Made by a program: the position numbers and the translations under genes. This document shows positions 19,458 through 31,634 of a stretch of 32,040 nucleotides of DNA, piece after piece (within the stretch, counting starts at the first letter, position 1; each line of letters begins with the position of its first letter). A model generated the notes under the pieces. That model was not told where the DNA came from and did no database searches. It worked only from the letters and a program-made list of their open reading frames with translations. This DNA comes from Phycisphaeraceae bacterium (GTDB taxonomy: Bacteria > Planctomycetota > Phycisphaerae > Phycisphaerales > Phycisphaeraceae): NCBI GenBank assembly GCA_020831765.1, contig JAFIFY010000051.1:1-32040 (forward strand). The letters are read 5' to 3'.

Positions 19458-20345
19458 ATGTATGAGAGCTTTTTCAACCTCGCGTGTTCGCCGTTTCAGA
19501 ACACGCCCAATCCCCGGTTCTTCTATGAGACCGAGCAGCACCGTGAGGCTCTGGCCAAGCTGGAATACACGGTGCGCAATCGCCGTGGATTCGCGCTGAT
19601 CACCGGGGAGATCGGCTCGGGCAAGACGACGCTGATTCGCACGCTGATGCGGCGCCTGGGCAGTGATGCCCGCATCGCGATCGTCAACAACACCCGGGTC
19701 AGCTCCGAGCAGCTTCTGCGGCTGATCTGTCAGGAATTGGGTGTCGAGGTTGGCCCGGAGAAGGATAAATCGGTATTGATCGCGCAGATCAAGCGGTTCG
19801 TCGAGCATCAGGCGGCGGTGGGTCGGAACGTGGTCATCATCATCGATGAGGGCCAGTGCCTGAGCATTGATGAGTTCGAGGAGATACGCCTGCTGACCAA
19901 CCTGGAGAGCGAAACCGAGAAACTGGTGCAATTGCTGATCCTCGGTCAGCCCGAGCTTCGCAACACGCTTCGTCACCCCCGATTGGCGCCGCTGATCCAG
20001 CGCATCTGCATGTATTGCCACTTGCAGCCGATGGGCTTCACGGACATGACTCGGTACATCGCTTTTCGCCTGGTACGGGCCGGCAAGGGGCGGCCGAACG
20101 TCGATTTTTCGCGAGAAGCGCTTCAGATGATCTATCAGTACACCAAGGGGATTCCCCGCCTGGTCAATCTCTGTTGTGACAATGCCCTGTTGGCGGGGTA
20201 TTCCAATGACACCAAGTTGATCGACTCGGGCATCGTCCGACGCGCCATTTCACAGATGATGCCGAACTTCGAGGGTCAGATGACCGATATTGTCGAGGAG
20301 TGGCCGGTGCAGAATCAGGAGATTGAGGATGGGCGACGTATATAA
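19458..20345 (+). CDS. ExeA-like AAA ATPase, XrtA/PEP-CTERM-associated type
   Basis: The 295-residue cytoplasmic ATPase begins MYESFFNLACSPFQNTPNP, the typical start of GspA/ExeA-like AAA proteins. Walker A is GEIGSGKTT (50-58 region) and Walker B is VVIIIDEGQ (D130, E131), followed by LLILGQPELRNTL and a C-terminal lid with TKGIPRLVNLCCDNALL. There is no membrane helix or peptidoglycan-binding domain, which distinguishes it from ExeA itself. Members of this type (TIGR03015 style) sit in exosortase-linked EPS clusters with an unknown role, perhaps powering assembly of the secretion complex. Its last 17 nt overlap the next gene, showing translational coupling to the kinase. Confidence 0.93.
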   Translation: MYESFFNLACSPFQNTPNPRFFYETEQHREALAKLEYTVRNRRGFALITGEIGSGKTTLIRTLMRRLGSDARIAIVNNTRVSSEQLLRLICQELGVEVGPEKDKSVLIAQIKRFVEHQAAVGRNVVIIIDEGQCLSIDEFEEIRLLTNLESETEKLVQLLILGQPELRNTLRHPRLAPLIQRICMYCHLQPMGFTDMTRYIAFRLVRAGKGRPNVDFSREALQMIYQYTKGIPRLVNLCCDNALLAGYSNDTKLIDSGIVRRAISQMMPNFEGQMTDIVEEWPVQNQEIEDGRRI

Positions 20346-21489
20346 GGCCATGCAGAAGGCCAGGCAGCAGTCCGGCGAACGGGCGGCTGACCCGGTCGGC
20401 GAGGCAGGCGTTGCCCCCGCGCCTGACGAGGGGGTCCGCACCGCCGAGCCTGGGGCATCGGAGGTGGGCGGCCTGCCCATGGACCAGATCCAGGCTTCAC
20501 CGCTGGTTGATGACCGCATCGCGGCGGGGAAGGATGGCCTTGCCCTCGACGAGGATGATGAGTTGATCGTTGAATCCGCGCCCCCGGTCGAAGGATCGGA
20601 GGTCGGCGCTGCGGCGGGTTCCCAATCCGTGCCGGCTGCGGATAGGGAGGCGGCAACCGCATCTGTGCCGGGGTCCGACTCGGGCAAAATGGATTCAACC
20701 GTCAGCCGCGCCATGAGTCGGGTGCCGACCGCGAAGCCCGGTAAGCGTATTCAGGGCGCGCACCGTGATCGCAAGTACCACGGTTCGCTCAACGGGTACT
20801 CGCGCGAGGTGGTGGCCCATCACGATCGCGGCAGCGTCATCACGGAACAGTATCGCGCGATCCGCACGCAGATTCTCGCCCGCGGCCGCACGCGGAAGCT
20901 GCACACCCACACCATCACCAGTTCGCTGCCCGGTGAGGGCAAAACCGTGACGACGCTCAATCTCGGTGTGACGTTCGCTGAATTGACCGATCAGAACACG
21001 CTGATCATCGAAGCCGATCTTCGCTGCCCGGCCTTCGCCAAGCTGCTTGACCGCGACGGCAAACCGGGGCTTCTGGATTACCTCGAGGGTCGGACCGACG
21101 ATATCGACGAGATCATCCAGCGCACGGTTTACGACAATTTCCAGTTCATCCCCGCCGGGGGCTCCGCGGCCGACCGCAGCACCCAGCTTCTATCGTCGCC
21201 GCGCATGCTTCGGCTGCTGGACCGGCTCAAGGACCGCTACGATCACCTGTTCATCGATACCCCGCCGATCATCAGCGTCACCGACGCCTGCATCATGGGC
21301 GCCGCCAGCGACCAGGTCATGCTGGTGGTGCAGCTCAACCGGACCACCAGCGAAGCCGTCGAGCGCGCCAAGCGATTGCTCAAGGCGGGACATTGCGAAG
21401 TCAGCGGTGTCATTCTGACCCATCAGACTGAACACCATGAGGACTATTACACCTCCAAGTACAGCCGATACTATCGGCCCGCGGAATGA
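20329..21489 (+). CDS. CpsD/CapB-type tyrosine autokinase (BY-kinase)
   Basis: The kinase controls EPS polymerisation through cycles of autophosphorylation with the Wzz-like protein. The 386-residue product has an N-terminal acidic, Ala/Gly/Pro-rich region of about 150 residues that looks disordered. Then comes a BY-kinase domain with Walker A SSLPGEGKT (198-206), a Walker A' LIIEADLRCP (with Glu where Asp is usual) and Walker B HLFIDTPP (307-313). The tail carries a tyrosine cluster: Y373, Y374, Y378, Y381 and Y382, the expected phosphorylation sites. ATG 20329 has AGGAG just upstream and overlaps the ATPase gene by 17 nt; an earlier in-frame start at 20290 lies deep inside that gene. Confidence 0.93.
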   Translation: MGDVYKAMQKARQQSGERAADPVGEAGVAPAPDEGVRTAEPGASEVGGLPMDQIQASPLVDDRIAAGKDGLALDEDDELIVESAPPVEGSEVGAAAGSQSVPAADREAATASVPGSDSGKMDSTVSRAMSRVPTAKPGKRIQGAHRDRKYHGSLNGYSREVVAHHDRGSVITEQYRAIRTQILARGRTRKLHTHTITSSLPGEGKTVTTLNLGVTFAELTDQNTLIIEADLRCPAFAKLLDRDGKPGLLDYLEGRTDDIDEIIQRTVYDNFQFIPAGGSAADRSTQLLSSPRMLRLLDRLKDRYDHLFIDTPPIISVTDACIMGAASDQVMLVVQLNRTTSEAVERAKRLLKAGHCEVSGVILTHQTEHHEDYYTSKYSRYYRPAE

Positions 21490-21522
21490 GCGCCCGAGCC
21501 CCATCGTGCGTGTGGAGTGAGC

Positions 21523-22815
21523 ATGAGCGATCAGGATCGGCAATCCACGGAGGATGAATCGACGGGCGATGGTTCTCGTAAGCCTCGATTGTTGATGCTG
21601 ACCCATCGCCTGCCCTATCCTCCGGATCGCGGGGATCGCATCCGCAGTTACAACCTGCTCAAGCAGTTGTCCCAGCATTTTGAACTGGCCGTGGCCTCGG
21701 TCAGCGAAGACCCGATCTGGCTTCAGCACCACCAGTTGCTGGCCTCGATCGCCAAGCGCGTGGCGCTGTATCCGGTCTCGAACCTGACGATCCGTATCAA
21801 TGCGGTCAAGGGGCTGCTTACCGGACGAGCCATCACTCCGAGTTGCTTTTTCCGGCAGGGGCTTTGCGATCAGATATTGCGATGGCAGGAGGAGGATCCG
21901 TTTGATGCGGTTCTGACTTTCTGCACCGGCATGATCGAATATGTCCGTCGCCTGCGGAATCACCGTCCCAAGCCGTTCACCGGCCGGCATGTGCTGGACC
22001 TTGTCGATGTCGATAGCGCCAAGTGGCAGGCCTATGCCGGGAACTCCTGGTTTCCCATGAGCATGCTCTACCGGACCGAGGCAAGAAGGCTTCGCCGGAT
22101 CGAGCGTGGCGAGTATGAGCCGTTCGATGCCCTGACCGTGGTCAGTGAAGCCGAGGCCGAGGCCTACCGCCGGACGGTCGGACCTTCAGATCGCGTGCAT
22201 GCGGTGGGCAACGGCGTGGATTTGCAGTATTTCCATCCACTGCCCGAGGCCGAATCCCCGACCCTCTGTTTCGTGGGTGTGCTCAATTACCGGCCCAATG
22301 CCGAGGGCATCACCTGGTTCGCCCGGGAAGTGATGCCTTTGCTGCATGAGCGGAGGCCGGATATCCGGTTGCTGGTCGTCGGGCGGCATCCCACATCGAG
22401 CATCGAGGAACTGGGCCGACATCCGGCGATCGAGATCGTCGGCTCGGTGCCGGACGTTCGCGCTTACATCCGCGAGGCGGGCGTGGTGATCGCGCCGCTG
22501 AAGCTGGCTCGTGGCGTTCAGAATAAGGTGCTCGAAGCCATGGCCTGCAAACGCGTGGCGATGTGCAGTCCCGCGGCGGCCGAAGGTCTGGATGCGGACC
22601 CCGAGCAGGAGATGGTCGTCGCCGACAAGGCCGAGGAGTGGGTCGAACGCATCATCCAACTCCTTGACGATGTTCAATTGAATCGCAAGATCGCTGAAGC
22701 CGCGCGACGACGAGTGGAGCGGGCATACTCATGGGAATCTCGTCTCGAACCCATGATTCGGTTGCTCAATGGCCAGTCGCCGCTTCGGATCACCACCGAC
22801 ACCGAAGCCGCCTGA
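21523..22815 (+). CDS. GT4-type glycosyltransferase, XrtA/PEP-CTERM-associated (TIGR03087-like)
   Basis: The 430-residue enzyme adds a sugar to the growing lipid-linked repeat on the cytoplasmic side. After a polar 20-residue start comes LMLTHRLPYPPDRGDRIRSYNLLKQL, shown in part here as LPYPPDRGDRIRSYN, a signature of the exosortase-system sugar transferase 1 family. A central LTVVSEAEAEAYRR segment and the C-terminal nucleotide-binding half follow, with VGNGVD, FVGVLNYRPNAEG and the GT4 acidic motif region VIAPLKLARGVQNKVLEAMAC. GGAG lies about 6 nt before the ATG. It follows the kinase by 33 bp and ends the cluster, meeting aroDE tail to tail with a 22-bp gap. Confidence 0.9.
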   Translation: MSDQDRQSTEDESTGDGSRKPRLLMLTHRLPYPPDRGDRIRSYNLLKQLSQHFELAVASVSEDPIWLQHHQLLASIAKRVALYPVSNLTIRINAVKGLLTGRAITPSCFFRQGLCDQILRWQEEDPFDAVLTFCTGMIEYVRRLRNHRPKPFTGRHVLDLVDVDSAKWQAYAGNSWFPMSMLYRTEARRLRRIERGEYEPFDALTVVSEAEAEAYRRTVGPSDRVHAVGNGVDLQYFHPLPEAESPTLCFVGVLNYRPNAEGITWFAREVMPLLHERRPDIRLLVVGRHPTSSIEELGRHPAIEIVGSVPDVRAYIREAGVVIAPLKLARGVQNKVLEAMACKRVAMCSPAAAEGLDADPEQEMVVADKAEEWVERIIQLLDDVQLNRKIAEAARRRVERAYSWESRLEPMIRLLNGQSPLRITTDTEAA

Positions 22816-22837
22816 TCCTTTTCGCCCACCAAGCGGA

Positions 22838-24433
22838 CTACTTCCCTTCAAGTTTCCGTCGCATGACCTGGGCGAAGCGTTCCAGTGGTGCGGCTTTGCC
22901 CGTCCAGAGTTCAAACTGCGTCGCCGCCTGGCGGATGAACATCTCATCACCGGTAATGATCCGACAGCCCCGGGCCTGCGCATCACGGATCAGGCGGGTC
23001 TTGAGCGGGTTGTAAATCGTATCAAAGACGACCGCATCGTCGCCGAAGGAATCGGGCATTTCCTCCGTCGGCCAAGGGGTGTCCTCTTCCTTGGGATGCA
23101 TACCCAGCGGGGTGCAGTTGATGACGATCGGGCAGCAGCTCTGGCAACGTTTCTCCCACGGCCCCGCGACCACCTTGCCGGGTAGTGATGAGAAAGCGGC
23201 GGCCAATTCTTCAGCGCGGGCCTGGGTGCGGTTGTAGATGATCACGGTGGCACCGTACTGGGCCAGGCCCGCCACGATCGCCCGCGCAGCGCCGCCGGCA
23301 CCCAGCACGACCACCCGCCGGCCGGCCAGCCCCTCACGCTCGATGCCAAGAGCCGCACACAGCGCATCCAGCGCCGCGGCGTAATCGGAATTGGAGGCCA
23401 TCAGGCCGCCATCCTCGCGGATCGAGAGCGTGTTGGCCGCGCCGATCAATTCGGCCAGCGGTTCGACATGACCGCCCTGTTCGCCAACGAAGCGAAGCAG
23501 GTTCTCCTTATGGGGGATCGTCACCGAAGCGCCACGGAAGTTGAGCGAGGGTAGATCGAGCCAGGAGCGAACCACGGCCTTGAAGGATTCCCATTCCGGC
23601 TGGACGGGCATCAGCACGTACACGCCGTTGTGGCCGATCTCGGAGAAGCCGGCGTTGTGAATCGCCGGAGACATCGAGTGGCCCACCGGGTGGCCGATCA
23701 CGCCGTAGACCTCGGTATCCGCATGCTGGTCATCCCAGCGATAAAGGTTCTTGAGTTCGACCACGTCCGGCTGTCCCGGCGCGGCGGCCTGGTGCCCGGG
23801 GGGTGAGGCGAAAGTGAGCAGGGCGTTGAACTTCCGCGCCAGCACGCGGCTGGGCAGACCGTGATCGCCCATGCAAATCGCGATGGTCGGCTTGAACTGC
23901 TGACCGATCAACTCGAACGCTTCGAGATTGTCATACAGCGATCGGGCGCGCCAGGCGACTTTGATCACCCGGGCCGCCGGGCTCGCCGCCATGGCCTCGA
24001 TTCGCTGATAGAGATCCGCCGGGCGGCCGACGAAGTCGTGGGTCGAGAGGATCAGGCCCGTTTGTCGCCGCCCCGGATTGCCCGGATGATCCAGCCAGGG
24101 CATCAGCGCTTCGCGCAGTTCCGCTTGCGCTTGCCACTGGGTCAGCTCCACATCGACATAGGCCGGTCCCTGCCCCGCTTTCAGTCCGGCCAGCAGGCGC
24201 TCGATCCGCCGCGCTGGGGTCATATCCTCCCGCCCGCCTTCATCTTCATGCCGACAGGTCAGAATGCAGGGGATCGGCGAGGCATCAATGAGCTGCCCGA
24301 CCTCTTCATCCGAACCGGAAAAACCATCGATCCGGAATTCGACCAGGTCCGCGCCGTGCTCAGCCGCCATCGCGGCCTGGCGCAGGGCATCGGCCCGGTC
24401 ATGAACGAGAATGGAAACGGCCAGGTGCGTCAT
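22838..24433 (-). CDS. aroDE: Bifunctional 3-dehydroquinate dehydratase (type I) / shikimate dehydrogenase
   Basis: The 531-residue protein catalyses two successive steps of the shikimate pathway: dehydration of 3-dehydroquinate and NADPH reduction of 3-dehydroshikimate. The N-terminal half (1-235) is a class I dehydroquinase with E32 in VEFRID, H132 in LSTHDF and the Schiff-base lysine K158 in VIKVAWRA. The C-terminal half (about 241-531) is AroE with GHPVGHSMSPAIHN (247-260), the catalytic K309 in VTIPHKENLL, N334, D350 and the NADP-binding VLGAGGAARA plus NRT (401-403). All key residues are present. This fusion order is typical of plants, chlamydiae and planctomycetes, and supports the organism guess. 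It stands alone on the minus strand. Confidence 0.95.
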   Translation of the reverse strand: MTHLAVSILVHDRADALRQAAMAAEHGADLVEFRIDGFSGSDEEVGQLIDASPIPCILTCRHEDEGGREDMTPARRIERLLAGLKAGQGPAYVDVELTQWQAQAELREALMPWLDHPGNPGRRQTGLILSTHDFVGRPADLYQRIEAMAASPAARVIKVAWRARSLYDNLEAFELIGQQFKPTIAICMGDHGLPSRVLARKFNALLTFASPPGHQAAAPGQPDVVELKNLYRWDDQHADTEVYGVIGHPVGHSMSPAIHNAGFSEIGHNGVYVLMPVQPEWESFKAVVRSWLDLPSLNFRGASVTIPHKENLLRFVGEQGGHVEPLAELIGAANTLSIREDGGLMASNSDYAAALDALCAALGIEREGLAGRRVVVLGAGGAARAIVAGLAQYGATVIIYNRTQARAEELAAAFSSLPGKVVAGPWEKRCQSCCPIVINCTPLGMHPKEEDTPWPTEEMPDSFGDDAVVFDTIYNPLKTRLIRDAQARGCRIITGDEMFIRQAATQFELWTGKAAPLERFAQVMRRKLEGK

Positions 24434-24580
24434 GGTGGCAAGAATACCCGATCACGCCGGGCTTACCGACCCGCCAACCCCGATGATTTGGGCGAGTCGG
24501 GCAACTGGTCGGGCCGGTGGGATCGTGACACAAAGCTAACATTTCTATAACCCGGGTGAAATCGTTACCCTGTGCCGTTC

Positions 24581-26872
24581 ATGGAACCGTCCGTCGGCAA
24601 CCGGCTCTATCGTCAGATTCTGGCGTGGTCACTGCTCGTGATCATGCTGGTGTTCTTGATCTGGCCGATTCTGTTGACGGTCGGCAAGGGCTTCATCCGA
24701 GCGGATGGCGCCAGTCGAGGCGCGGCGTACATCCTCTTCAACCACGATCCGGACCAACCGGGAGTCTTCAACTATGCCGGGCTCGATGCCCGCTCGGGGC
24801 AGTGGGTGATCGGTCGCCGCGATGCCGAGGGCTGGCACGACCTGGCCGTCGCCCCCGGAGCCCGCGCCAACCAGAACTATGAACTCCGCCTGGTGTTCGA
24901 GGAGACCGGCGTCACGCTGGCATCGACCCGGCCATTGGTTCGACACCAGTTCGAGCTGCCGGCCGGCGGGCGGATCGGCCTGTCGGCGGTCGATGCCCCG
25001 GCGACCTTTTCCCGACTGGACATCCGGTATGCCCGCCAGACGCCGGGCCGCGTGGGCAACGAGGTCATCCGCTTCACCGCATCCGAGCATCTGCCCCGCG
25101 ATCCTTCGCCAGAGGCCCGCTGGAGCACCGACCGCAATCAACTGGTGACGCCCGTCAGCACCGGTCAGACCGCCATCGGGTTCTTTGCCGATCCCGAGGA
25201 ATCCCGTCGCATTCTGGGCGTCGAGGTCGTGCTGCGCTCGACCGCCGTCGGGTGGTTCACCCTGGATTATTTTCTGGGCATCTTCCGCGATCCGGTCCTG
25301 GTCAACGGGCTGCTCAACAGTCTGTGGATCGCCATCGGCACCACGCTGCTGTGCCTGATCATCGCGCTGCCGCTGGCGATGGTTTCAGCGCGTTGCGAGT
25401 TTCCGGGCAAGGCGATCTTCTCGGCGCTGGTGCTGGTGCCGCTGATCCTGCCGCCCTTTGTCGGGGCGATTGGTCTGAGGGCGATCATGGGTCGGGCCGG
25501 ATCGCTCAATGCGCTTCTGGGTGATATCGGGGTGATCGACGCGGATGCGCCCGGCTTGGATTTCCTGGGGGCTTATCGGTTCACCGCTGTGATCGTGCTT
25601 CAGGCGCTGCATCTGTATCCGATCCTGTATCTGAACCTGGTCGCGGCGCTGGCCAACCTGGACCCCTCGCTCGATGAGGCCGCCAAGAACATGGGCGCCG
25701 GTTCGTTTCGGCGTTTCTGGCGCATCACCGTTCCCCTGATCATGCCCGGGGTCTTCGCCGGCGGCACCATCGTCTTCATCTGGGCCTTTACCGAGTTGGG
25801 CACGCCACTGATGCTCAACGTCCGCGATGTGATGCCGGTTCAGGTGTTCGAGGGCCTGCGACAGATCGAGACCAATCCCCGCCCGTTCGCCCTGGTGGTG
25901 GTGATGTTACTGGCCTCGGTGATTCTCTATGGCCTGGGCCGGCTGGCGCTTGGCCGACAGGCTTATGCGATGCAGTCCAAGGCCTCGGTCGGCTCCAGCA
26001 CCCTTAAGCTGGGGTGGGTTGGGTCGCTGATGGCGATGTCGTTCTTCGGCCTGGTCACGTTCATCGCCGTGCTGCCGCACATCGGCGTCATCTTCACGTC
26101 CCTGACCATGGATGGGCAGTGGTATCGCTCGGTGTTTCCACAAGAGTGGACATTGACCCACTACGAGAACGCGCTTTCCCATCCGCTGGCGGTCGGTTCG
26201 ATCCAGAACAGCCTGCTGCTGGCCAGCGCTGCCATGGTGCTGTGCATCATCGTGGGCCTGGCGATCTCGTACCTGAACGTGCGTTGTCGAATGAAGCTGG
26301 GCGTGATTCTTGATGGGCTAGCCATGCTGCCGCTGGCCGTGCCCGGCATCGTGCTGGCGTTCGGCTACATCGCCATGTCCCTGGTCTGGCCGCTGGGCCC
26401 CGGTACGGTGAGCGAGGGTGGCTTCCTTCAGGTGGTGGGAACCGACCCCAACCCGTTCCCATTGCTGATCATCGCCTATGCGGTGCGGCGATTGCCCTAC
26501 GTGGTGCGCTCGGCTTCGGCGGGGCTGCAGCAGACCTCGGGCATGCTCGAGGAAGCGGCGCTGAACCTGGGCGCTTCGACCATGACCGCCATCCGCCGCA
26601 TTGTGCTGCCGCTGATCATGGCCAACCTCATCGCCGGCGGCATCCTGGCCTTTTCCTTCGCCATGCTGGAAGTAAGCGATTCGCTCATCCTCGCCCAGCA
26701 GGAGCGCCACTTCCCCATCACCAAGGCGATCTTCAGCCTCTTCAATCGCCTCGGAGACGGTCCCTATATCGCAAGCGCGATGGGTGTCTGGGCGATGATG
26801 CTGTTGGCCCTGACGCTGGTCGCGGCCAGCATGCTGATGGGTAAACGCATGGGCGCGATCTTCCGTATCTGA
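24581..26872 (+). CDS. Double-domain ABC transporter permease (FbpB-like) with a periplasmic jelly-roll-like insert
   Basis: The 763-residue inner-membrane protein contains two fused binding-protein-dependent permease domains. Each has an EAA loop that would contact the ATPase: DEAAKNMGAGSFRRF near 365 and LEEAALNLGASTMTAIRR near 656. This double layout is typical of ferric iron, thiamine or polyamine/phosphonate-type importers. Between the first helix (about 15-36) and the second (about 237-268) is an unusual periplasmic stretch of some 200 residues. Its first half (NYAGLDARSGQWVIGRRD, then NYELRLVF, GGRIGLSAVDAPATFSRLDI) reads like a concanavalin/LamG-type sandwich. No binding protein or ATPase gene lies nearby, so the substrate is unknown. 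ATG 24581 is chosen; GTG at 24572 would add three residues. Confidence 0.9.
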   Translation: MEPSVGNRLYRQILAWSLLVIMLVFLIWPILLTVGKGFIRADGASRGAAYILFNHDPDQPGVFNYAGLDARSGQWVIGRRDAEGWHDLAVAPGARANQNYELRLVFEETGVTLASTRPLVRHQFELPAGGRIGLSAVDAPATFSRLDIRYARQTPGRVGNEVIRFTASEHLPRDPSPEARWSTDRNQLVTPVSTGQTAIGFFADPEESRRILGVEVVLRSTAVGWFTLDYFLGIFRDPVLVNGLLNSLWIAIGTTLLCLIIALPLAMVSARCEFPGKAIFSALVLVPLILPPFVGAIGLRAIMGRAGSLNALLGDIGVIDADAPGLDFLGAYRFTAVIVLQALHLYPILYLNLVAALANLDPSLDEAAKNMGAGSFRRFWRITVPLIMPGVFAGGTIVFIWAFTELGTPLMLNVRDVMPVQVFEGLRQIETNPRPFALVVVMLLASVILYGLGRLALGRQAYAMQSKASVGSSTLKLGWVGSLMAMSFFGLVTFIAVLPHIGVIFTSLTMDGQWYRSVFPQEWTLTHYENALSHPLAVGSIQNSLLLASAAMVLCIIVGLAISYLNVRCRMKLGVILDGLAMLPLAVPGIVLAFGYIAMSLVWPLGPGTVSEGGFLQVVGTDPNPFPLLIIAYAVRRLPYVVRSASAGLQQTSGMLEEAALNLGASTMTAIRRIVLPLIMANLIAGGILAFSFAMLEVSDSLILAQQERHFPITKAIFSLFNRLGDGPYIASAMGVWAMMLLALTLVAASMLMGKRMGAIFRI

Positions 26873-27004
26873 TCGATGAAGCGGATTGGTTGGACCACGA
26901 GGCGAACTCGGCCGAATGCCCCGAGCACCCGGCGATGGTCCGCAGTGTCCCGGCCTTCGCCAAGCGCGACGGGAATCTGATCATCCCCACAGCGCCGGTC
27001 GGCC

Positions 27005-27679
27005 TTATTCAGGAACCCGCCACTGTTCGCCCGGCTCCATCACCTTGACCTCCACGCCCTCGGGCTTGAATTCGCTGATGTCATCGGTCAGCAGGGGGAA
27101 GGTCTTGTAGTGAACCGGGATGGCGTAGCGGGGCTTGACGAACTCCGCGGCCCGCGCGGCCAGGGCCGGGCCCATGGTGAACCGATCACCCACCGGCAGA
27201 CAAGCGATCAGCGGGTGGGCGTATTCGCCGATCAGCTTCATGTCGCTGAACAGCCCGGTATCCCCGGCGTGATAAATCTTCACGCCCGCGATCTCGATGA
27301 CCAGACCCGCGGGCTGGCCCATGTAGCGGCCTTCGTAGCTCGAAGAGTGAAACGCCGGCGTGAACGCCACGTAGCCGAAATCGGTCATGATCCGCCCGCC
27401 GGGGTTGCCCGGCTCGGTCTTTTCCACTCCCTTTTCACCAAGGTGGATCGCAAGCTCGTTGACCGCGATCACCGGAGCCTTGTTGGCCTTGGCGATCGCC
27501 ACCGTATCGCCGACATGGTCATCGTGGCCATGGGTCAGGGCGATGTAATCACAGCGGATATCGGCCGGTTTGTGTTTGGCCAGCGGGTTGCCGGTCAGGA
27601 ATGGATCGACCGCCAGCGTCTTGCGGCCGTCGCTGAAAAGAAAACCTGAATGTCCGAGAAAGGTGACGGTAAGAGGCAT
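27005..27679 (-). CDS. UPF0173 metal-dependent hydrolase (metallo-beta-lactamase fold)
   Basis: The 224-residue cytoplasmic protein matches the UPF0173/YtkL family. Its N-terminus is LTVTFLGHSGFLF. The zinc-binding HxHxDH motif is THGHDDHVGD (H50, H52, D54, H55), later metal ligands fall in YHAGDTG, and the C-terminal IPVHYKTFP is characteristic. The biological substrate of the family is not established. The ATG at 27679 is supported by AGGAG 8 nt upstream; a longer frame from 27733 would run into the promoter area, where TATAGT (minus strand, 27714-27719) is a plausible -10 box. It converges with the ABC permease across 132 bp with no clear terminator. Confidence 0.93.
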   Translation of the reverse strand: MPLTVTFLGHSGFLFSDGRKTLAVDPFLTGNPLAKHKPADIRCDYIALTHGHDDHVGDTVAIAKANKAPVIAVNELAIHLGEKGVEKTEPGNPGGRIMTDFGYVAFTPAFHSSSYEGRYMGQPAGLVIEIAGVKIYHAGDTGLFSDMKLIGEYAHPLIACLPVGDRFTMGPALAARAAEFVKPRYAIPVHYKTFPLLTDDISEFKPEGVEVKVMEPGEQWRVPE

Positions 27680-27789
27680 GGCAAAGCTCCTGATCAAACG
27701 ATTACCCACTCCTACTATACGCAATTCCTGCACGGTATCACGACTCCGGACGTTCCACGTTGTACTCTTGAACGATTGTGGAGTTGTGC

Positions 27790-28998
27790 ATGAGGCTTGA
27801 CCGGTCCATTGAGGTTCGTTTCGACCACCGGCTGATCGTCACCCGAGGGGTGTTCGATTCCGACGCGGCCGGGGCCGATGCCCTGGCGGCGGTGATACGT
27901 GAGGGCATGGCGGTCGGCGGTTCGGGCGGCGAGTTGAAGTCGGAATCGGACCGGCGGGCGAAGGTGCTCTTCTGCATCGATACCCATGTTGCCAAGGCTC
28001 ATCCGGATCTGGTGGATCGCATCCACGCCTGGGAGCGACGGCACGCCGAATTGATCGAGCCGGCCGGACGCGTCCATCCCGTACCCGGCGGCGAGTTCTG
28101 CAAGAACAATCGCGAAATCTTGTACGCCCTGCTCAGCCGCATCCATCACCAGGGTCTGGATCGGCAAAGCTACATCGTCGTCATCGGCGGCGGGGCGGTT
28201 CTGGATTGCGTCGGCATGGCCGCGGCGCTGGCCCACCGCGGAGTGCGCTTGATCCGCATGCCCACCACGACCCTGGCCCAGGGCGATTCCGGCGTGGGGG
28301 TCAAGAATGCGATCAACGGTTTTGAGCAGAAGAACTATCTGGGCACCTTCGCCGTGCCCTGGGCGGTTATTCACGACGAGGCGTTTCTGGACAGCCTTTC
28401 GCCTGAAGCGTGGCGGGATGGCTTCAGCGAAGCGGTGAAAGTGGCGCTACTCAAGGATGCGACGCTTCTGGAGCGCCTCGAGCTTGACGCTGACCGGATT
28501 CGCCGCGTGGGTGATCCGGCGGGCCTGGACGTCCTGCGCCGCTCGGCGGTGCTGCACATGGACCATATCGCCCTTGGCGGCGATCCGTTCGAGATGACCT
28601 CGGCCCGCCCATTGGATTTTGGCCATTGGGCGGCCCATCGGATCGAAGCGTTGACGGATTACCGCATCTCGCATGGCCACGCGGTGGCGATCGGGCTGAT
28701 GATCGATCTTGAGTACGGCCGCCGCGCGGGGTTGACGGAGCCGGATTGCGCCCGACGAGGCGCGGCGGTGCTCCGTAACCTCGGTTTTTCGGCACCGACC
28801 GACCTGTGCATCCCCTCGCGCCGGCTGCTTGAGGGTATCGAGCATTTCCGAGCCCATCTGGGCGGAGCGCTGACCTTGACCATGGTTCAATCCCCCGGCC
28901 GAGCGGTCAATATTCACGAAGTGGATATGCCCGCGATGCTCGGCGCGCTCGATACCGTGCTCCCACGACAACGGGTCGGTTCGGCCCGGTCCACCTGA
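27790..28998 (+). CDS. eboD: 3-dehydroquinate synthase paralogue, EboD-like
   Basis: The 402-residue protein belongs to the dehydroquinate synthase / sugar-phosphate cyclase superfamily: NAD-binding IGGGAVLDCVGMAAA (GGG 134-136), PTTTLAQGDSGVGVKN (158-173), and the zinc ligands expected at E214 (GFSEAVKVALLKD), H279 (PLDFGHW) and H295 or H297 (SHGHAVAIG). Sequence features such as RGVRLIRMPTT, KNYLGTFAVP and GGDPFEMTSARPLDFGHWAA fit the EboD branch of the ebo cluster rather than housekeeping AroB. The usual HGE before AVAIG is HGH here. The other ebo genes (eboA, B, C, E, F) are not in the window. GGAG lies 6 nt before the ATG; a GTG at 27778 is an alternative start. Confidence 0.82.
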   Translation: MRLDRSIEVRFDHRLIVTRGVFDSDAAGADALAAVIREGMAVGGSGGELKSESDRRAKVLFCIDTHVAKAHPDLVDRIHAWERRHAELIEPAGRVHPVPGGEFCKNNREILYALLSRIHHQGLDRQSYIVVIGGGAVLDCVGMAAALAHRGVRLIRMPTTTLAQGDSGVGVKNAINGFEQKNYLGTFAVPWAVIHDEAFLDSLSPEAWRDGFSEAVKVALLKDATLLERLELDADRIRRVGDPAGLDVLRRSAVLHMDHIALGGDPFEMTSARPLDFGHWAAHRIEALTDYRISHGHAVAIGLMIDLEYGRRAGLTEPDCARRGAAVLRNLGFSAPTDLCIPSRRLLEGIEHFRAHLGGALTLTMVQSPGRAVNIHEVDMPAMLGALDTVLPRQRVGSARST

Positions 28999-29030
28999 TC
29001 GCGCAATTTCCCGTCCGCTTTCAGGCCGGG

Positions 29031-30191
29031 TCACTCCATCGATCCCGCCCGGCGGATGCCCCGATCACCAAACTTTCGACGCACCGCATCCATCGTCTCA
29101 TCCAGTCGGCGTTGCTTTTCATCCTCCGGATGCTCGAACAGCATGCCCGGCGCGGCCTGGCGCGGCACCAGCTTGCTCAACGTGATGCCGGCCAACCGAA
29201 GCGGACGCATCCCCGCCATCAGCCACTGCCCGAGCAATCCATCGGCCGCTTCCCAGATGCGCTGGGTGGAATCGGTTGGAGCGGTCAACGTGACCGACCG
29301 GCTGATGGTCACGAATTCGCTTGTCCGCAGCTTCAAGGTCATCGTGCCCGCCAGAAGCTCACGCCCGCGCAGTGATCGGCAGACCGACTCGGTCAGCCAA
29401 AGCAAGATGCCACGCAACGCCGCGCTGTCGCACACATCCTGCCCGAAAGTCCGTTCCTGCCCGATGCTTTTGGCCTTGCGGTGGTCCTCGACGGGGCGAT
29501 CATCCAGACCGTGGGCCAGTGCCCACATGCCCGATGCCTGGCGGCCGACGATCGACTCCAGCCATGAAACCGGGCGGCTGCGCAATTGCCCGATCGTACG
29601 GATGCCCAGCGATTCCAGCTTGTCCGCGGTGGCCGGTCCCACCCCCCAGAGCCGGCCAACCGGCAGCGGATCGAGGATCACCCGGGCCTGCTGTGGCTCG
29701 ATCAGTTTCAGCCCATCGGGTTTGGCCATCTCGCAGGCCAGCTTGGCCAGGCTCTTGTTCGGACCGATCCCGATCGAACACGCCAGCCCGGTGGCGCTGC
29801 GAACCTCCCGCCGAATCCACGCCCCCGCTTCGGCCCAGCGCCCCATCCAGGTCTGGACGCCGGTCAACTCCACGAACGCCTCATCCAGCGAAAGCGGCTC
29901 CATCACCGGCGACACCGATGCGAGAGTGTCCATCACCACCGCCGATAGCTGCTGATACCGATCGAATCGAGGCGGTCGAATCACCGCTTCGGGGCAGAGG
30001 CGTCGTGCCATGGCCATCGGCTGGGCCGAGTGGCAACCGAATCGGCGCGCTTCGTAACTGGCCGTACACACCACGCCCCGCGACCCATCGTAGCCCACCA
30101 GCACCGGCCGGCCGACAAGGGAAGGATCATCCAGCGCCTCGACCGAGGCGAAGAACGCATCCAGGTCCATGTGCAGCACGCAACGAAGCAC
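29031..30191 (-). CDS. dinB: DNA polymerase IV (Y-family translesion polymerase)
   Basis: The polymerase copies damaged DNA at the cost of accuracy. The 386-residue product has the Y-family palm residues D9 (HMDLDAFFASVE) and D103/E104 (SLDEAF), the finger motif SYEARRFG, the GIGPNKSLAKLA and WGVGPATADKLESLGI helix-hairpin-helix segments, and a little-finger domain starting near KSIGQERTFGQDV. The motif QAAPGMLF (345-352) resembles a beta-clamp-binding peptide, but it is followed by a further 34 basic and acidic residues. The GTG start at 30191 has AAGGTGA 5 nt upstream. No clear LexA box is visible; a TATAGT at 30227-30232 (minus strand) may be its -10 box. Confidence 0.94.
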   Translation of the reverse strand: MLRCVLHMDLDAFFASVEALDDPSLVGRPVLVGYDGSRGVVCTASYEARRFGCHSAQPMAMARRLCPEAVIRPPRFDRYQQLSAVVMDTLASVSPVMEPLSLDEAFVELTGVQTWMGRWAEAGAWIRREVRSATGLACSIGIGPNKSLAKLACEMAKPDGLKLIEPQQARVILDPLPVGRLWGVGPATADKLESLGIRTIGQLRSRPVSWLESIVGRQASGMWALAHGLDDRPVEDHRKAKSIGQERTFGQDVCDSAALRGILLWLTESVCRSLRGRELLAGTMTLKLRTSEFVTISRSVTLTAPTDSTQRIWEAADGLLGQWLMAGMRPLRLAGITLSKLVPRQAAPGMLFEHPEDEKQRRLDETMDAVRRKFGDRGIRRAGSME

Positions 30192-30371
30192 CGGTCACCT
30201 TGGCTGTTGAGATCGAACCAGGGATTACTATAGCGGACCGGATCATGGCGCGGCGGTCCGGATCGCTTATGATCGCCCACCGCCGGAGCGATGGGGAAGC
30301 ACAGGGTTCGGGCGCCGTTGCGCGGTTGTGGTTGACCGGTACCAGGCGCCTCGGATGATGGATGACCTTAC

Positions 30372-31634
30372 ATGAAACTTGACCATGATTTTGAGGGCGG
30401 AACGCCGTTCGATGTGGAGCGGCCGGAATCGGGGATCATGAGTATCGTGCCCCGTGCGCCGGGTTCGGGGAGTCAGTGGTTTTATCTCTGTTTTCGTTGC
30501 CGTTGTGATGGCCAGGGCCCGCACGCCGATGATGTCATGTGCATCCGTTGGCCGCGCTCCTATGGTGTTGAAGACCTGCCGCCGGAGTTGGATGAGGAAG
30601 TCCGGTTCCGCATGACCAGTCACGACAACTTCGCCGCGGCGCTCCACCGCACGCTCTTTTGGAGCCCGGACATGCGCACGTGGAAAAAGTTGAAGGTCGA
30701 GCCGGCCGATTCGGATCGGAGCATCATGGTTCCGGTCCCGGATCAGAAGCGCGCGGTCTACATCGCCACGCAGATTCCGTATCTGGCGACGTATTACGAA
30801 TCGTTGATCGAGCACGTCCGGTCGGTGGAGCCTGATGCGTTGCTGACCTTGGGCAAGAGCCAGGGCGGCCGCCCGATTTATGGTTTTCGATTCGCCGATC
30901 GGGATCAGGAATCGACCGATGATGATTCAGCGATCGGCCCGGTGCTGCACCTGCAGGCTTATCAGCACCTGACCGAATTCACCGGCCCGCGGGTGCTCGA
31001 TGCCATCGCGCGGGCGCTGGCAGGCCGCCCGGACCATCCGCTTCGCGCGAAGATGACGGTGGATATGGTTCCGGTGGTGGATGTTGATGGTCTTGACGAA
31101 GGGGTCGGGATGTTGCTGGAACCGCCTGAGGATGGTCAACCCCGGGCCGGGGAGCCCAACCCGAATCGCTGCTGGAGCAACGGCGCCTGGCCGGAAGTCG
31201 AGGCGGTCCGTGCCCATGTGCGGCGGACGATCAACCAGGGTGGCGATTATCGACTGGCATTGGACCTGCACAACGGTTGGTACAAGGTGGATGTTTCCGG
31301 GGCGTGCTACACGATGGAGCCGGCTTCACGGGCCGATGAAGCTTATCGGGGGAGACAGAAACGATTCATCGACTGGATGTACCGACATACGGATCACGAT
31401 AAACCCGGGACCTACTGGGAGCACGATACCGGCGGCCGCACCTTCGCCTCATGGTTGCCGACCCTTTGCCCCGATGTGACGGCTTGCACCGTCGAGTTCT
31501 CCCGGCACATCTGGTGGAATCGCAAACGGGAGTCTTACGAGCCGGTGGATGTCCACCATCCCGAGCAGTTCGCGCTCCAAGCGCTGGAGGCGATCACGGA
31601 ATATCCGCTGTCCGAGGAACCCAAAGAGGATTAG
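30372..31634 (+). CDS. M14 metallocarboxypeptidase-like protein (cytosolic carboxypeptidase branch)
   Basis: The 420-residue product has no signal peptide. An N-terminal beta-rich domain (about 1-125) precedes an M14 peptidase domain. The linker IATQIPYLATYYESLI and LGKSQGGRPIYGFRF resemble the AGBL/cytosolic carboxypeptidase branch. Zinc ligands fit H199 and E202 (AYQHLTEFTG, in place of the usual HPGE) and H300 (LALDLHNGW). Substrate-binding N265/R266 (NPNRCW) and catalytic E375 (TVEFSRHIWW) follow at the expected spacing. The altered first motif, His-Leu-Thr-Glu, keeps both ligands, so activity is plausible. Bacterial members often trim acidic or cell-wall peptides, but the substrate here is unknown. 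The ribosome site before the ATG is weak. Confidence 0.82.
   Translation: MKLDHDFEGGTPFDVERPESGIMSIVPRAPGSGSQWFYLCFRCRCDGQGPHADDVMCIRWPRSYGVEDLPPELDEEVRFRMTSHDNFAAALHRTLFWSPDMRTWKKLKVEPADSDRSIMVPVPDQKRAVYIATQIPYLATYYESLIEHVRSVEPDALLTLGKSQGGRPIYGFRFADRDQESTDDDSAIGPVLHLQAYQHLTEFTGPRVLDAIARALAGRPDHPLRAKMTVDMVPVVDVDGLDEGVGMLLEPPEDGQPRAGEPNPNRCWSNGAWPEVEAVRAHVRRTINQGGDYRLALDLHNGWYKVDVSGACYTMEPASRADEAYRGRQKRFIDWMYRHTDHDKPGTYWEHDTGGRTFASWLPTLCPDVTACTVEFSRHIWWNRKRESYEPVDVHHPEQFALQALEAITEYPLSEEPKED

Follow-up and report, generated by a model that had tools for sequence, protein, structure and literature searches.

How does an ABC importer permease come to carry a large extra domain in front of its membrane core, and what becomes of the importer when neither a binding protein nor an ATPase is encoded beside it? 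Both questions are raised by a gene in a stretch of 32,040 nucleotides from a Phycisphaeraceae bacterium (contig JAFIFY010000051.1 of assembly GCA_020831765.1), hereafter the window. A sequence-only reading had recognised in it an ABC permease with a lectin-like module between its first two helices, and had suggested that the module could replace or assist a separate binding protein, or sense periplasmic glycans.

The Permease Gene and Its Core

The open reading frame occupies positions 24581–26872 of the forward strand, from an ATG at 24581 to a stop codon at 26872, and encodes 763 aa; an in-frame GTG at 24572 is an alternative start that would give 766 aa. By its open reading frame and by Pfam and NCBIfam scans the product is indeed an ABC permease, and more precisely a double (fused) type-I importer permease. 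BPD_transp_1 is its sole Pfam domain (E 4.8e-23), matched in two stretches covering both halves and scoring 82.3 bits against a gathering score of 26.4. Transmembrane helix 1 (residues 13–31, 24617–24673, +) stands out by hydropathy and has a similar segment in the orthologs; a simple hydropathy scan of the whole protein finds 11 hydrophobic segments. The core (residues 223–763, 25247–26869, +), recognised by Pfam, homology and motifs, contains the EAA coupling motif in each half, EAAKNMG at residues 366–372 (25676–25696, +) and EAALNLG at residues 658–664 (26552–26572, +).

The best 25 of 35 NCBIfam matches comprise molybdate, aminoethylphosphonate, tungstate, sulfate, polyamine and other types, and the permease scores under the cut-off of every one of these 25 models. 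Among its relatives of solved structure are MalF and the iron permease 9j4r, and both the NCBIfam and the solved-relative matches start only downstream of the insert described below. Permeases of the PhnU2, PotB/C and ModB types, as well as 9j4r, have the same core, PhnU2 also being a double permease. A permease match at E <= 1e-40 is present in 129 of 151 genomes of the order, and relatives were found in Planctomycetota and Verrucomicrobiota (80 loci kept of 264 found). By these sequence features the protein is a type-I ABC importer permease with all its parts, and it is conserved in both Phycisphaerae and Verrucomicrobiota.

The Insertion in the First Loop and Its Distribution

The inserted domain, located by comparing loop lengths with those of orthologs, spans residues 46–222 (24716–25246, +). 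Its borders were placed by eye and are approximate (±5 aa), giving a length of about 177 aa, or 181–183 aa when the insert is taken as the amount by which the loop exceeds the median. With the end of helix 1 and a fixed core position as end points, the loop is 210 aa long in the window permease and 212 aa in that of the sister genome G142, against 22–40 aa in 107 of the 109 measured orthologous loci, which bears out the earlier remark that the region between helices 1 and 2 is overlong. The anchor was obtained for 109 of 110 loci, the paralogs L002–L006 and the contig-cut permease of G145 being excluded and one ORF being counted twice (L008 = L036). Of 22 additional loci, namely G015, G033 and 20 others picked mostly for long open frames, 21 have a loop of 26–50 aa and one, G015, has a loop of 147 aa that is unrelated in sequence. 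Alignments of orthologs to the window permease mostly start at residue 200 or later, usually at about 222. The segment might have turned out to be a common part of ordinary permeases; it is missing from nearly all orthologs surveyed.

Two other readings were rejected. An assembly chimera is ruled out by G142, which has an insert of 34% identity at the same site, and the permease of G033, with an apparent match from residue 70, is an ordinary one of 615 aa with a 27-aa loop.

Matches to the insert profile are present in at least 7 of 400 genomes of the order, among which permease inserts occur only in the window genome (G000), G142 and G145; in G145 at least the first half of the insert is present, and a contig end cuts it. 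The best matches inspected in G085, G097, G136 and G156 are other, non-permease proteins. In the phylum sample at least 6 of 392 genomes have a match, and the 12 loci examined besides the window have the domain in proteins without the permease core. In both surveys at most eight candidates were scored per genome, and misses are possible. The permease is thus widely shared, and its insert is seen in one small lineage. When 42 permease cores are placed in a tree, the two rows with a complete insert group together as a single clade (support 100/98) amid insert-less rows, which fits one gain; a single gain is well supported, and it probably took place in the ancestor of the window genus and genus g27.

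The long loop of G015, a genome from another family of the order (L184:1438–3639, −), lies at the same site and has no Pfam domain inside; being unrelated, it indicates that the loop gained extra sequence more than once. It could accordingly be argued that the loop accepts inserts and that the domain does little beyond folding without blocking the transporter. This is consistent with the G015 loop and with the fast divergence of the insert, for which identity between the window and G142 is 34% as against 72% for the core. The frame, however, has been kept open in two genera, and domain-typical residues are shared (WVIG, Y, H.F), and a merely tolerated decoration is regarded as unlikely.

Relationship of the Insert to ConA-Like Domains

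Pfam and NCBIfam scans of the insert alone give no match, and no SBP-type binding domain is matched by Pfam in the permease chain or in the insert. A search of the 51 family genomes with the insert finds matching repeats (best E 1.7e-7) in G097 and, within very long open frames, in G156; these repeats score PF06439 (1.9e-10) and PF13385, Laminin_G_3 of the ConA-like lectin superfamily (2.5e-6), and of 11 canonical units scanned singly, 7 match PF13385 and 3 match PF06439 at E <= 0.1. The matching part of the insert, residues 58–150, resembles a ConA-like (PF13385/PF06439/CBM66-like) domain in large non-permease proteins of relatives. A half-domain profile built from non-permease repeat proteins gives residues 37–154 a score of 42.5 bits, the maximum in 1000 shuffles being 6.9, and among the 5837 ORFs of loci L001–L115 the same profile finds only two proteins, the insert-bearing permeases (E 9e-10 and 4e-5). 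In profile tests (hhalign 88.2, E 1e-14) residues 46–150 (24716–25030, +) correspond to the C-terminal part of a ConA-like/CBM66-like domain, the B half, which here comes first. On the strength of these comparisons the first half of the insert is homologous to ConA-like/CBM66-like domains. The LamG/concanavalin pattern read earlier in residues 45–150 was therefore right in kind, and the profile search suggested with it does lead to the ConA-like repeats of relatives; the proposed extent was too short, the domain running on to about residue 222 with its halves apparently swapped.

One relative is CBM66 of the Bacillus subtilis levanase (4AZZ, 4B1L, 4B1M); the profile built from the 11 canonical units can be aligned with it over positions 18–172 of 175 (E 0.012). 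Another match, obtained with the insert profile, is the C-terminal part of a GH43 enzyme (2.2e-6, with one stop within the aligned stretch), and this GH43-attached relative matches both PF06439 (3.2e-10) and CBM66 (8e-10). By these indirect links CBM66 and the PF06439/PF13385 domains are remote homologs of the insert, which, unlike them, appears to have its halves swapped and sits within a membrane permease. A direct sequence search of the PDB with the insert returns mostly antibody chains (best E 0.00068), and in a search of solved sequences with a three-row insert profile antibody chains (0.0044) come ahead of CBM66 (0.04). This likeness was judged to be a chance one, since it runs across the point where the two halves meet and since the canonical-repeat profiles list CBM66 and no antibody at E <= 1. 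No relatives of the repeat were confirmed in viral contigs.

It is also worth mentioning that the domain is matched 20 times in G156, whose open frames with it reach 4936 aa and contain head-to-tail repeats of 174–178 aa (L119, L131, L134, L136–L145, L172–L178), and that a single copy is located within an apparent RHS/YD-repeat protein, by our own reading (L171:1738–2259, −).

Because the kin of the domain are carbohydrate-binding modules, the main rival to the explanation proposed below is that the insert is a glycan-binding module, whose lectin function would anchor the transporter on polysaccharide of the cell wall or surface, or concentrate a glycan substrate near the binding protein. Its ConA-like/CBM66-like relatives, one on the GH43 enzyme and many in large repeat proteins, agree with this, and the characterised CBM66 specificities named in the available part of PMC11002231 are fructans and xanthan. 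The window copy, however, lacks the VDG-type motif found in most repeats and in the sister copies (VDD, VDG), and the nearest listed transporter models are those for molybdate, aminoethylphosphonate, sulfate and polyamine, all under their cut-offs. Tethering of the complex or its substrate through residual glycan binding is the next most likely role of the insert after docking, and as a full account of the domain glycan binding is possible but rather doubtful.

The Order of the Two Halves

In the canonical domain the N-terminal A half, with the motif EDF.DG..ADF ... G.W.V....RY, precedes the C-terminal B half, with the motif LIFDYQGP.DFKFAG ... VDG...H.F ... GLGT..A.A.FDDL. The A half comes first in the single-copy protein L171 and at the starts of the arrays L137, L134 and L178; the array L138/L173, which opens with a B half lacking a recognisable A half upstream, is an exception to the canonical order. 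In the permease insert the order appears reversed, B being followed by A: residues 151–222 (25031–25246, +), the last part of the insert, resemble the N-terminal part of a ConA-like/CBM66-like domain by profile–profile alignment and shuffles. In this alignment the second half of the insert falls on canonical columns 41–85, just before those of B (85–191), with a score of 22.1 that was reached in none of 300 column shuffles (maximum 20.6). When the canonical order of the halves is restored, the total rises from 88.8 to 99.9, higher than in any of 300 shuffles (maximum 95.8).

A second, independent panel consists of 22 domains, all from G547; L186, L187 and L188 are left out of it (their matches start too late), and L189 yielded none. 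This panel places the A half on columns 8–84 with a score of 15.3, equalled in 7 of 150 shuffles, and raises the total in canonical order from 97.0 to 100.6, reached by 1 of 150; the result is weaker than that of the first panel, in the same direction and in the same register. The sister insert is collinear with a profile in B–A phase over 11–168 of its 178 positions, the window insert only over 9–109. In one-sided profile searches the A half of the window alone does not rise above chance (589 of 1000 shuffles as high), and that of the sister alone is equalled by 5 of 1000.

The repeat period is 174–178 aa (12 units), compared with about 177 aa for the insert. Given the rotated phase and the length of one period, the simplest history is the capture of one period from a tandem array. 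That the insert is one repeat period in rotated phase, a circular permutant, is well supported, although the similarity behind it is remote. It suggests that a unit of a tandem array captured in rotated phase may still close into a fold.

Single-sequence AlphaFold gives pLDDT 40 for the whole permease and, for residues 42–225, an all-beta model of low confidence (pLDDT 43), both too poor to rely on. A fold search with the latter has no match at E <= 0.001; CBM66 chains stand at ranks 5, 7 and 27 with E values of 0.09–0.23, which are not significant. The insert would fold into a closed sandwich, and the known fold of such permeases would place it on the periplasmic side.

Probable Partner Genes Elsewhere in the Genome

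Pfam scans of the eight main neighbouring ORFs (19458–31634) reveal neither an ABC ATPase nor a binding protein near the permease. The statement that the permease has no partner genes holds for these ORFs but not for the genome, which encodes a binding-protein ortholog (G000:C130:36320–37456, 539-aa ORF, SBP_bac_6) and an ATPase ortholog (G000:C174:3727–4806, 366 aa, ABC_tran + TOBE_2). The latter scores E 1.1e-111 and the next ATPase 4e-65, the ortholog threshold of E < 1e-80 having been set after the scores were seen. The binding-protein ortholog is also present in the insert-bearing genomes G142 and G145.

Across the 51 genomes of the family the presence of the permease agrees with that of the binding protein in 48 and with that of the ATPase in 45. 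Among the 33 genomes with at least 90% completeness and at most 5% contamination, agreement is found in 32 and 33, respectively, and with one such genome per genus in 22 of 23 and 23 of 23; in Fisher tests of this co-occurrence, genomes with common ancestry are not independent. A check of the genome for a co-occurring ATPase and binding protein, as the sequence-only reading had advised, has thus brought up both, and the two co-occur with the permease across the family.

Binding protein and ATPase are located directly upstream of the permease, on the same strand, in 10 of the 80 named loci (L050, L051, L053, L054, L064, L067, L092, L093, L099 and L114), nine from Verrucomicrobiota and one, L054, a Phycisphaerae record. 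The binding protein alone is present at six further loci (L061, L062, L066, L097, L103 and L111, the last on the other strand and side). The upstream DNA examined varies among these 80 loci, amounting to at least 4 kb in 60. In loci L036–L049, nearly all named Planctomycetota or Phycisphaerae, the pair is present in 0 of 14, L040 having a weak, distant ATPase match. In single-contig genomes the three genes are far apart; in G026, for example, the permease lies near 7.27 Mb, the binding protein at 0.79 Mb and the ATPase at 5.27 Mb. Isolation of the permease is common to orthologs without the insert. Since the partner orthologs encoded elsewhere in the genome co-occur with the permease, the importer is most likely complete, with its genes dispersed, and the products of the three genes presumably work together. 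An orphan-looking importer is thus likely to be complete, its genes scattered over the chromosome, which matters for operon-based prediction of transport.

These data bear on the suggestion that the insert is a built-in substrate-binding domain replacing a separate binding protein. No binding protein adjoins the gene and the insert has lectin-like homology, both of which would fit; yet the binding-protein ortholog is present in all three insert-bearing genomes and co-occurs with the permease, and orthologs without the insert are often equally isolated. As the binding protein is there and co-occurs, replacement is unlikely on that ground, and we regard it as very improbable overall.

Two other arrangements were noted. 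In a Verrucomicrobial record (L050:2995–7581, +) the ATPase, the binding protein and the permease follow one another consecutively. The window genome itself encodes a second, linked importer (G000:C62:14677–18583), whose permease is distantly paralogous to the one described here (31% identity) and lies about 1.7 kb from an ATPase.

A Possible Role at the Position of MalF-P2

The nearest known parallel in position and size is the P2 region of E. coli MalF. According to the parts of PMC3150292 available, P2 comprises residues 91–271 and a part of it directly touches the maltose-binding protein; titles in reference lists refer to contact throughout the cycle and to a signal of substrate availability. 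Residues 248–389 of the window permease align to MalF 282–424 (phmmer), so that, with P2 at the position given in that text, the insert and P2 both lie just before the core. Like the insert, P2 so delimited is about 180 aa long and forms a periplasmic loop right before a type-I importer core. MalF is one half of a permease pair, whereas the window permease has both halves fused. The insert profile, searched up to an E value of 10, matches 33 distinct solved sequences, none of them a MalF chain. Contact with the binding protein, reported for P2 in the available text, would for the insert be an analogy of position only.

The following explanation can be proposed with moderate confidence. In the ancestor of the window genus and g27, one ConA-like/CBM66-like period of about 177 aa would have entered the first periplasmic loop, cut from a tandem repeat array in rotated phase and hence a circular permutant. 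Orthologs of the binding protein and the ATPase are still encoded elsewhere in the genome, and the domain would serve as an accessory extracytoplasmic platform at the MalF-P2 site, where, at the transporter mouth, it may touch the binding protein or steer it. A platform or docking role appears the most likely one because the core motifs are intact, the partners have been kept and the domain lies in the loop before the core, in the position of MalF-P2. A permease with such an insert was not found in a narrow search of the open-licence literature. With empty-loop orthologs at hand in the same family, this case shows an importer acquiring an extracytoplasmic domain of the size of MalF-P2.

A bolder version is that the captured rotated period, folded as a permutant, acts as a lid gated by glycan or by the binding protein and couples surface polysaccharide to import. 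We consider it improbable, though if true it would give ABC importers a built-in accessory domain of a new kind.

Other Genes of the Neighbourhood

Upstream of the permease, on the opposite strand, a fusion of type I dehydroquinase and shikimate dehydrogenase is encoded at 22838–24433 (−), as recognised by Pfam, and a dehydroquinate-synthase ORF is located at 27778–28998; genes of the shikimate pathway thus lie on both sides of the permease. Further upstream, at 19458–22815 (+), an AAA_22 ATPase, an AAA_31 protein (tyrosine-kinase-like in our own reading) and a group 1 glycosyltransferase are encoded in a row, an arrangement resembling an exopolysaccharide cluster.
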